DNA from: a virus
Virus record (IMG/VR): IMGVR_UViG_3300025168_000312
Coordinates: 1-34,022 of that record
DNA length: 34,022 nucleotides
Strand: one strand, 5' to 3'
The translations under genes were made by a program, and so were the position numbers. Shown piece after piece: positions 7,142 through 12,561 of this stretch. The notes beneath the pieces are model-generated. The model saw only the letters and a list, made by a program, of their open reading frames with translations. It did not search any database and had not been told where the DNA came from. Numbering within the stretch: the stretch's first letter is position 1; every line of letters begins with the position of its first letter.

Positions 7142-8410
7142 CTATACTATCCAATTCCTATCCTGTTCTAATGGCTTATCCCAACTAGTAGAATATTTAT
7201 TATCTGAAATACCTACAGCTAAGTATCTAAAAGCGTCAGCGCAGTGACTTGACCAATCATGTAATGGTTTATCCATATAAACATTTAACTTATCATTAAA
7301 TTGTCTTCTATAATTTCTTAAGCACTCTAACCCATACTTAGTGCTTTCTTTATTAAACCAACAATTAGGTAGCATCCTTCTAACTTGTTGTATTCCATCT
7401 TCTACAGGTAATTTAGCTGCTACAGTTATATCTAATCCAGATTCTTCTAATACTTCTTTCCTAGATTTTCCTGTTCCAAGCTCTCTAACTACGACATCAT
7501 GTGGAAGTATGTGCTCAAAATTTTTATATCCATTGTCGTTTATCCAACTTACATAATGGTCTAAACCTTGACCATGGTTTTCATAATAATCTATTAGTCT
7601 TATTTCTAAACCATGAAGCTGTGCAACCCATATAGATGTAGAATCTCCAACTCCTAAGTCCCATGAAGTTATACTTCTACAAAGAGAATCTTCATTAATA
7701 TCTACTATTTGGTTTTTAGATGATAATTCATTTATTAATTCTCCATAATAACTACCTACAATAGGTGCATCAAAACTAATTTCAAACTCTTGGTTGTATT
7801 TATTTTCTCCCATAGAGTCTTTCGCGTCAATTAACTCTTTTTCATTTATTATACTTGTGTCACTTGCTTTAAATTCAAGTAAATTCCAACCTTCTCCTTT
7901 ATCCGCTCTATCTCTTAAGTCTTTAAAGTGATTTGCGCCCTTAGGAGTTCCAATGAAAACAGCAAAACCAAGGCGATCAGCCAAAGCGGGTCGAATAACT
8001 TCTGTAAACAAACTAGGAGATACATCCCCAATTTCGTCGATGACAACTCCATCCAAGTATATACCTCGTAGTGTGTCAGGATTGTCAGCACCATAGAGAT
8101 TAATACGCCTACCCATGAAATCCACACGAAGCTCAGAAACACTGGCAACTCCTCCTAAATGTCTGGTATAATCAGTTAAATAGTCCCAAGCTATTCTCTT
8201 TGCTTGGCTATAAGTTGGTGCTACGTATGCAAATCTGGGGTTATCTTTTTCGCATTTTAAAGCGCTATGTATTAATTGATTTATTGCAGCTACTGTTTTA
8301 CCCATGCGCCTATGGCATACAGCAACTGTGAACCTGTTATCCCTTACTGATTTGTGTATTGCTTTTTGAGGTATTCTAGGTATATAACCTGTTTCAACTA
8401 TCTCCGTCAT
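7142..8410 (-). CDS. terL: Terminase large subunit
   Basis: A 422-residue packaging motor. The ATPase domain has Walker A CHRRMGKT at 32-39, Walker B VVIDE at 122-126 and a coupling-type motif F-I-G-T-P-K-G at 152-158. The RNase H-like nuclease has Asp251 (SWDLGVGDS), and Asp392 near the C-terminus (SSHCADAFRY). It pumps DNA through the portal and cuts concatemers. The start overlaps the small subunit gene by 17 bases, the usual terS-terL order. Full length and intact. Confidence 0.95.
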   Translation of the reverse strand: MTEIVETGYIPRIPQKAIHKSVRDNRFTVAVCHRRMGKTVAAINQLIHSALKCEKDNPRFAYVAPTYSQAKRIAWDYLTDYTRHLGGVASVSELRVDFMGRRINLYGADNPDTLRGIYLDGVVIDEIGDVSPSLFTEVIRPALADRLGFAVFIGTPKGANHFKDLRDRADKGEGWNLLEFKASDTSIINEKELIDAKDSMGENKYNQEFEISFDAPIVGSYYGELINELSSKNQIVDINEDSLCRSITSWDLGVGDSTSIWVAQLHGLEIRLIDYYENHGQGLDHYVSWINDNGYKNFEHILPHDVVVRELGTGKSRKEVLEESGLDITVAAKLPVEDGIQQVRRMLPNCWFNKESTKYGLECLRNYRRQFNDKLNVYMDKPLHDWSSHCADAFRYLAVGISDNKYSTSWDKPLEQDRNWIV

Positions 8411-8666
8411 CTATGCCAGTAATAACCTTAACTGTTAAAGGATTATCACCGTCTCCTGTAACCATGTTTTCTTGCATGGATTTACCATCTAATCTATCTC
8501 CTAGCTCTTTAATTGCAGATACATCACCTTCTGCTGCTTTCTCATATAATGCATTAGCAACACGATGTAGTTTAGAATAGTCTTCCTGCACTGCTAATTT
8601 TCTAACAATTTTAGACCATATTCTTTTTTCTACTGTTGAATTCTTATTTCCTTTTGGTGCTGCCAT
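8394..8666 (-). CDS. terS: Terminase small subunit
   Basis: A 90-residue protein that should recognise the packaging site. It begins MAAPKGNKNSTVEKR and has A-L-Y-E-K-A-A-E-G-D-V-S-A-I-K-E-L-G-D-R-L-D-G-K, the signature of a common small TerS family. The acidic C-terminal tail would contact TerL. A TATAAT-like box lies ten bases upstream (8677-8682) and a folded element lies just beyond it (8686-8739). The ribosome binding site is only AGG. Confidence 0.85.
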   Translation of the reverse strand: MAAPKGNKNSTVEKRIWSKIVRKLAVQEDYSKLHRVANALYEKAAEGDVSAIKELGDRLDGKSMQENMVTGDGDNPLTVKVITGIDDGDS

Positions 8667-8685
8667 ATGTTAACCTATTATAATG

Positions 8686-8739
8686 TGGGGAGGATTGATT
8701 TGCACAATCAAACACGCAGGAGAATTACGTGACTCCCCA
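8686..8739 (-). other. Three-arm inverted-repeat structure upstream of terS
   Basis: A seven-pair outer stem (TGGGGAG at 8686-8692 with CTCCCCA at 8733-8739) encloses two hairpins: TTGATT at 8695-8700 with AATCAA at 8706-8711, and CACG at 8713-8716 with CGTG at 8728-8731. Together they form a compact three-way junction of 54 bases with almost no unpaired junction bases. It fills the gap between pqqA and terS. The minus-strand loop of the CACG arm contains UUCUCCU, complementary to a Shine-Dalgarno sequence. Possible roles: packaging site for terminase, structured RNA or translation control. It does not match a tRNA or a self-cleaving ribozyme I know. Confidence 0.6.
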
Positions 8740-8747
8740 GCTATTAA

Positions 8748-8819
8748 TTACTTATTCATCACATACATTGTAACTTCAAAGCCAAATCTCATTTCTGTTG
8801 CAATTGGTTTTGTCCACAT
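8748..8819 (-). CDS. pqqA: PqqA-like PQQ precursor peptide (23 aa)
   Basis: A 23-codon gene preceded by AAGGAAATAAGC and ending in TAA. Its product opens M-W-T-K-P and ends R-F-G-F-E-V-T-M-Y-V-M-N-K. The family signature W-x-K-P ... R-x-G-x-E-V-T-x-Y is complete, at the spacing found in bacterial PqqA peptides (22-29 residues). In known PqqA the Glu and Tyr of E-V-T-x-Y, here Glu15 and Tyr19, are cross-linked by the radical SAM enzyme PqqE with PqqD, and become the cofactor pyrroloquinoline quinone. No pqqB, C, D or E gene is in the window, so a host must supply them. It lies between a DUF3310 gene and terS, in the same direction as neighbours. The identification is strong; the role in infection is inference. 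Confidence 0.88.
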   Translation of the reverse strand: MWTKPIATEMRFGFEVTMYVMNK

Positions 8820-8872
8820 AGCTTATTTCCTTTTTAAATATTAAAAAATACAAATATCATAAGGGAAGTCTC

Positions 8873-9094
8873 CTAAGCCTTACTTGATTGCTCCTCTATC
8901 AACCAATTAAGATAAACTCTTGCTTTGTTATAATCTTCGTCAGCTGAATCTTTATAATTAGCTCTACTCAAATATTTTAATACATTTCCTCTGAGATAGC
9001 CAATGTACTCTTGTTTACTTAATTTAGCCTTAATAAACTCTATAGTTTCTACCGAGCCTATAGTATAATGCTTTACATCTTTTTCTATCTTCAA
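8873..9094 (-). CDS. DUF3310 family protein
   Basis: A 73-residue protein with H-Y-T-I-G near the start, E-Y-I-G-Y-L-R-G-N-V-L-K-Y-L-S-R in the middle and E-D-Y-N-K-A-R-V-Y-L-N-W-L-I-E at the end. This is the pattern of DUF3310, a small phage family often found next to nucleotide metabolism genes; biochemical function is not settled. It sits directly downstream of promoter-like motif copy 2 and just after the ribonucleotide reductase. Confidence 0.85.
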   Translation of the reverse strand: MKIEKDVKHYTIGSVETIEFIKAKLSKQEYIGYLRGNVLKYLSRANYKDSADEDYNKARVYLNWLIEEQSSKA

Positions 9095-12117: not shown

Positions 12118-12133
12118 ACGCTCTCACGAGCGT
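12118..12133 (-). promoter_or_regulatory. GNRA tetraloop hairpin after the 138-residue gene
   Basis: Minus-strand RNA: ACGCUC-GUGA-GAGCGU, a perfect six-pair stem with a GUGA loop (GNRA class). It lies 11 bases after the stop of the 138-residue gene. No U-run follows, so it probably protects or processes the transcript instead of ending it. It resembles the UUCG hairpin after the capsid gene in size and position. Confidence 0.5.
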
Positions 12134-12144
12134 TTCGACTTTTA

Positions 12145-12561
12145 CTATTTTATCCAATAGCCATAAACACATCTACCACCATCTCTTGAGCAATCATAAG
12201 TATCATTAATTACTCCATCAATAACAGCAACATAGTGCTTAGAAACTCTTGCGATAACATTTCCTTTAGGTAGTTCATTTGCATTTAAATGTACCTTACA
12301 TCCGCTTCCAATAGACATAGTAGGAATCCATTTAAAACCTATAGAAACCATGTAGTCTTTAAACCATTTCTTTTTGGTAAAGATACCGTTTCTTGCAGAC
12401 TTAATACCGCAGTCTTTTTGATTACCTAGTGCTAATCTATCATACACAGTTTTATAAGGAAGTTGTGCTGCTATCGCGATAGACCTTGTAACGCAGTCTC
12501 CTGCAACGCCTTGATAGCCAGCGGCACTTCTACCTCCATCATTAAGTATATAATGACTCAT
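12145..12561 (-). CDS. Papain-like cysteine peptidase-like protein
   Basis: A 138-residue protein with G-D-C-V-T-R-S-I-A-I-A at 21-31 and K-H-Y-V-A-V-I-D-G-V-I-N-D at 108-120. A Cys near the N-terminus (Cys23) at the head of a helix, then a His in a strand (His109), followed by Asp/Asn, is the arrangement of papain-fold peptidases and C39-like domains. Related proteins occur in phages without a known target. It has its own sigma70-type promoter just upstream, unlike most genes here, so early expression and action on a host protein is possible. That role is inference. Confidence 0.6.
   Translation of the reverse strand: MSHYILNDGGRSAAGYQGVAGDCVTRSIAIAAQLPYKTVYDRLALGNQKDCGIKSARNGIFTKKKWFKDYMVSIGFKWIPTMSIGSGCKVHLNANELPKGNVIARVSKHYVAVIDGVINDTYDCSRDGGRCVYGYWIK

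Follow-up and report, generated by a model that had tools for sequence, protein, structure and literature searches.

In a set of uncultured phages, a conserved RNA fold of the coding strand was found downstream of pqqA and ahead of the gene that begins the packaging operon. Judged from comparisons of related sequences, the element probably controls when the packaging genes are made, and we give a probability of about 0.45 to the reading that it would act in cis as a leader RNA of the packaging (late) operon, most likely a translational operator read via its loop.

The window analysed, a stretch of 34,022 nt of phage DNA (IMG/VR record IMGVR_UViG_3300025168_000312), carries its large ORFs on the minus strand, running from tail-fibre-like and virion genes through replication genes, a B12-type ribonucleotide reductase (RNR), and a DUF3310 gene to pqqA, and then through the element, terS, terL, an SU10-like portal, and scaffold and capsid genes. 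The pqqA gene (8748–8819, minus strand; 23 aa, MWTKPIATEMRFGFEVTMYVMNK; Pfam PqqA, 7.8e-11) has its stop codon 8 nt 5' of the element. The first gene of the packaging operon is terS-like (8394–8666, minus strand; 90 aa), with a weak DUF5681 match, below the cut-off, for its product and 117 relatives in viral contigs (tblastn), and it is followed by terL (7142–8410, minus strand; 422 aa), 65.6% identical to a Venkman gene annotated as a terminase. A spacer of 19 nt (8667–8685, minus strand) between the element and the terS start codon contains a weak Shine-Dalgarno (SD)-like AGG (8674–8676, minus strand) and a TATAAT (8677–8682, minus strand). A TATAAT-like box beside the element had been part of the original prediction, and it is present, but it is not conserved: four of the 42 leaders have one 5' of the start codon, including a case where it overlaps the ATG. 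Some phages related to the pqqA-carrying group infect methanol-eating bacteria, and phage-borne pqqA is on record from Lake Baikal (PMC7678222).

Within the window, the element (8686–8739, minus strand) forms a three-way junction in which an outer stem of seven pairs (8733–8739 with 8686–8692) closes two hairpins of six pairs each with 1, 1, and 2 unpaired junction bases, or, from 8739 to 8686, (((((((.((((((.......)))))).((((((.....))))))..))))))). Hairpin 1 (8713–8731, minus strand; CACGUA/UGCGUG) carries the loop UUCUCCU at 8718–8724, and hairpin 2 (8693–8711, minus strand) has UUGAUU/AAUCAA as its MFE register and GAUUG/CAAUC (minus strand, 8709–8693) as the homologous register, as in L011 and L014. 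Both the nested fold and its position agree with the original prediction. The minus-strand fold (−19.3 kcal/mol) was better than all of 200 shuffles (mean, −9.8; z = −4.02), in line with the earlier view that chance formation is unlikely, and the plus-strand fold was weaker (−16.5; z = −2.84). With 106 nt of context around the element the z-score was only −1.49; the single-sequence energy is therefore modest evidence, and it is the comparison with relatives that decides.

Relatives were collected by TerS similarity, which returned 160 loci, many from the same contigs; 77 distinct terS leaders remained, with 4 loci left out for too little upstream sequence. The 77 comprised 33 leaders with the UUCUCCU element, 33 with a hairpin embedding the SD sequence, and 11 with neither (six loci scored as having both by the script were counted with the element, their inner match being due to chance). 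The 11 with neither consist of nine members of a group in which terL lies directly before terS, together with L077 and L416, the last with an HNH gene between the element and terS. Pattern scans contributed further leaders beyond the TerS-similarity set, and the 42 distinct leaders with the element are 47 minus 5 coding or chance matches. A covariance model, R1, built from six sequences of the most common architecture (type C, below) and modelling that type only, had 33 matching places in 74 chosen loci, among which was L159, a known element carrier, and 0 matches in a separate set of 100 loci that consisted mostly of pqqA loci. R1 also matched 44 of 53 tight-pattern stretches, and the other nine look like coding matches. 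The copy number was one per record in the 13 matched records of 47 searched. In the terL-before-terS group, the element precedes the portal in the four contigs where it was found (L482, L485, G004, G006), and there was no R1 match in G001–G003, G007, and G009–G011, most of them short contigs (G009, 20.6 kb). The element was not found by R1, with its restriction to type C, in six named phage records, and of the 10 stretches that a pattern scan returned from 84,980 species genomes, none is a true element.

Three architectures share the outer stem and the UUCUCCU hairpin and differ in the third part, which is either a second hairpin or a UUUAAA linker. Type C, found in most leaders, has an outer stem of 6–7 pairs and an inner hairpin of ~5–8 pairs with the loop NNUUCUCCU, followed by UUUAAA; in type A (the window, L011, L014) and in type B (L015, L378, L374, L375) a second hairpin stands where type C has UUUAAA. 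The four-base loops of hairpin 2 in type B vary (GAAA, GCAA, UUCG, CUCG), with the hairpin itself kept, and the stem of hairpin 1 changes from CACGU/GCGUG in the window to CACAU/AUGUG in L011. An alignment of six sequences made without a model (A3) had 100% of cells paired and double changes in 7 of 12 pairs. A larger alignment (A4, 20 distinct rows) had standard pairs in 99.6% of pair cells and both-side changes in 8 of 12 pairs, with 47 double-change cells compared to 11.3 in shuffles (0 of 500 reached 47) and 1–3 such cells left when the partner was slid by 1–3 columns as a control. A5 (25 distinct rows, including the chance match L592 and a partly broken copy, L554) agrees with A4; both were fitted to the model, and A3 shows the same picture without it. 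The type A junction is retained in L011 and L014 through compensating changes, but for type A alone the statistics are weak (three sequences; 20 of 500 shuffles reach the observed value). The sense fold was more stable than the antisense fold in 30 of 31 distinct elements, and 27 G.U pairs occur among the sense folds. The search for compensating changes that had been proposed as a check thus came out positive: in related phages the stems are preserved through compensating substitutions and the loop is retained, and on this basis the element is a functional RNA adjoining terS.

The order along the leaders is pqqA, sometimes an inserted gene, the element, and the first packaging gene, which is terS or, under the other gene order, the portal. 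In 35 of the 42 leaders the start codon lies 14–23 nt 3' of the element, be the gene terS, portal, or HNH, and the structure thereby sits next to the ribosome-binding site of the gene that would be regulated, as in translational operators. The spacing is 8 nt in two leaders and 51–109 nt in five, all five with a second terS family, so the place next to the ribosome-binding site is not absolute, and the compactness of phage genomes, together with common descent, could account for part of the short spacing. Upstream, pqqA is present in 37 of 42 leaders, and the other five have at most 532 nt of upstream sequence; an element independent of pqqA was rejected, as pqqA is found wherever the sequence suffices. 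The distance from the pqqA stop codon to the element ranges over 7–543 nt and reaches ~1.1 kb in L580, with an inserted gene of 324 aa in between. With a variable distance to pqqA and a short one to the start codon, the element keeps to the packaging gene, and in portal-first genomes (L258, L448, L482, L485, G004, G006) it stays with the portal and not with terS. Translation control of either pqqA or terS had been suggested originally; control of terS expression is the best reading, and control of pqqA is less likely than that of the downstream gene, because insertions have built up between pqqA and the element, with the packaging gene remaining close.

Several other features were seen around the element. 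Putative HNH endonuclease genes of several kinds (named from their motifs) are inserted beside it, at the early/late boundary, in L434, L445, L485, L546, L548, L555, and L294; a mobile HNH cassette that includes the element was rejected, because these genes lie between pqqA and the element (after the element in L294) and most leaders have no HNH gene. Divergent pqqA copies in L546 and L548 (MNKNVWTKPVANEMRWGFEICMYVLNK, MWVKPEATVLRFGFEVTCYIFNHSD) retain an E-x3-Y motif, which we take to be the PQQ precursor residues. L569 and L252 have in common a promoter-like stretch, TATATGACAGTTTTATGACAATAA.TATAATAG, between the element and the second terS family. A third structured-looking stretch occurs between pqqA and the element in many type C leaders (L018, L020, L050, L054, and L056 among them), and may include an H-type pseudoknot (ACAGUCGAAGGACGCUGUAAGUCC), after which comes GGAUGCCAGC-stem-AGAUUAC-stem-GGGCU.

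A separate covarying hairpin, GUAAGG CUUAGGAGACUUC CCUUAU in the window (8859–8883, minus strand), lies in the pqqA leader ~55 nt 5' of pqqA in the window, L017, L018, L025, L048, L429, and others, with varied stems (GGAUGA/UCAUCU, AAGUGA/UCACUU, AUCAGA/UCUGAU, GGUAGG/CCUACU) and a loop of the form CUUR...CUC. Phage pqqA loci that lack the UUCUCCU element (among L634–L644) have this hairpin too, and it is for this reason assigned to the pqqA leader and rejected as a second half of the element. Kissing between its loop and that of the element, for which the window offers 6–7 complementary bases, was likewise rejected because L011 (CUUAGAAUACUUC) and L014 (CUUAGACUACUUC) are without the complement.

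The UUCUCCU loop is present in 42 of 42 leaders while the stems change, an invariance that is partly due to selection, as UUCUCCU was the seed of the pattern searches. The TerS-similarity set was not chosen by the loop, and its leaders without UUCUCCU contained, among the matches listed, no similar structure with another loop; the loop is therefore taken as truly conserved. UUCUCCU resembles an anti-SD sequence, and pairing with the terS SD sequence in cis had been raised as an option, but this is disfavoured, with −2.8 kcal/mol in the window and mostly −3.5 to −6.8 kcal/mol elsewhere, and with permuted loops about as good in many leaders (typical permutation fraction, ~0.2). A loop-SD pseudoknot is likewise weakly supported. 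As loop-SD pairing is unconvincing, a trans-acting factor must be assumed, and a search by gene content of genomes with the element against other genomes gave no clear candidate: RNR and several small proteins are common to the former and rare in the latter, with 0 RNA-binding Pfam matches.

Among the terS loci that lack the element, 44 of 54 have a covarying hairpin that embeds the terS SD sequence (for example GUAAUGACCC..GGAGUUAC, GUGAC..GGAGUCAC, and GCAAC..GGAGUUGC; L019, L027, L045, L060, L069, L078, L083, L085). In five element-less contigs scanned over the whole genome, a hairpin of this type occurred once, directly 5' of terS, and in ctXG6705 it lies directly 5' of terL (record positions 12128–12150); the scan was loose, with scattered other matches in both groups. 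Examination of nine genomes (or parts of genomes) with the element showed none before terS, and there was no co-occurrence of the two structures in the leaders and genomes compared. The SD hairpin is like the element in its place, gene family, covarying stem, and single copy per genome, but it holds the SD sequence itself and a loop of the form ACC...GGA, and is unrelated in sequence and fold.

Under the preferred reading, covarying stems would present the invariant UUCUCCU just 5' of the ribosome-binding site, a putative trans-acting factor (a phage or host protein, or an RNA) would read the loop, and its binding would set the translation of the first packaging gene and hence the onset of DNA packaging. 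Translational operators known from phages include the MS2 coat operator and the leaders of T4 genes 32 and 43, which the element resembles in placing a folded RNA next to a phage gene's ribosome-binding site and in having a loop possibly read by a factor; it differs from them in lying wholly 5' of the SD sequence, in having both three-way-junction and interrupted-hairpin versions, in the invariant UUCUCCU, and in that its factor is only putative. A strong intrinsic terminator lies between the element and terS in L431, L434, and L437 (in L437, 13 pairs and T8 directly 3' of the element, with an identical sequence in the other two), and a purely translational model leaves this terminator unexplained.

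The main rival, a serious though less likely one, is processive antitermination of the kind known for HK022 put, in which the nascent RNA at the early/late boundary would make the host RNA polymerase read through terminators into the late operon. In the excerpted source, put is an RNA of ~70 nt located after early promoters, with two stem-loops arranged in a V and an RNA triplex, and it acts via the zinc-binding domain of the RNA polymerase beta' subunit (PMC9378689). The element is similarly a short, cis-acting, structured phage RNA that heads a long operon, its three-way-junction types (A and B; 54–60 nt) are near put in size, and its position between the replication genes with pqqA and the packaging genes, its single copy, the tolerance of differing distances and first genes, and the wide gap before the start codon in five leaders would all suit such a role, as would the terminator of L437, which leaves little room for another promoter before terS. 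Against this, put differs in lying after early promoters, and the fold is not that of put: types A and B have two hairpins inside an outer stem and type C a single interrupted hairpin, whereas put pairs long stem-loops in a V and adds a triplex; a pyrimidine loop is not described in the excerpt of that source. Further, a separate terminator of the L437 kind was noted in one leader lineage only, and antitermination would not require the spacing of 14–23 nt seen in 35 of 42 leaders. A more specific form, which we regard as doubtful, is a protein-free processive antiterminator of new architecture that via the UUCUCCU loop would convert the host RNA polymerase at the early/late boundary for readthrough into the packaging and structural genes, with the SD hairpin of sister phages as its counterpart at the translational level.

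Next in order, and also doubtful, the element could be an intercistronic 3' element of pqqA that ends, processes, or protects the pqqA mRNA and so yields the peptide in excess over the packaging genes. The presence of pqqA upstream in every leader with sufficient sequence fits this reading, and host pqq operons have a structure after pqqA. It is at odds with the 0 R1 matches (type C) in 100 loci, mostly pqqA loci, and with the HNH and other genes inserted after pqqA while the element stays beside the packaging gene. Nor does the element itself have the GC stem and direct T run of an intrinsic terminator, as a T-rich tail occurs in just 5 of 42 leaders, the window not among them. Very improbable is a trans-acting anti-SD RNA whose UUCUCCU would bind the AGGAGAA of ribosome sites in other mRNAs, of phage or host: this heptamer is over-represented in the window (16 compared to 6.3 expected), with several matches directly before gene starts, but such enrichment is expected from any SD sequence, the element is embedded with short spacing in the intergenic stretch before the packaging genes, and no promoter-like site was reported beside it. 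A DNA site (pac, cos, or TerS binding site), suggested originally from a location directly 5' of terS that holds in the window and most relatives, is close to negligible, because the stems covary as RNA with G.U pairs on one strand, an ordinary site in duplex DNA would give compensating stem changes no evident purpose, and where the portal comes first the element stays beside it, with terS distal.

The element matches no family in Rfam 15 at or above the gathering cut-off, either for the window or for 16 relative loci; a permissive search of 8640–8900 gave weak matches only, all outside the element, and no paper describing it was among those listed by a literature search. To our knowledge, phage leader RNAs have been little catalogued outside model phages. 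The translational-operator reading apart, the element is a defined, testable RNA that heads the packaging operon in uncultured pqqA-bearing phages from many metagenome samples and that can be annotated with a covariance model. As sister lineages have either this element or the unrelated SD hairpin at the same spot, the timing of packaging appears to be RNA-controlled in these phages, a problem that would have been solved twice.
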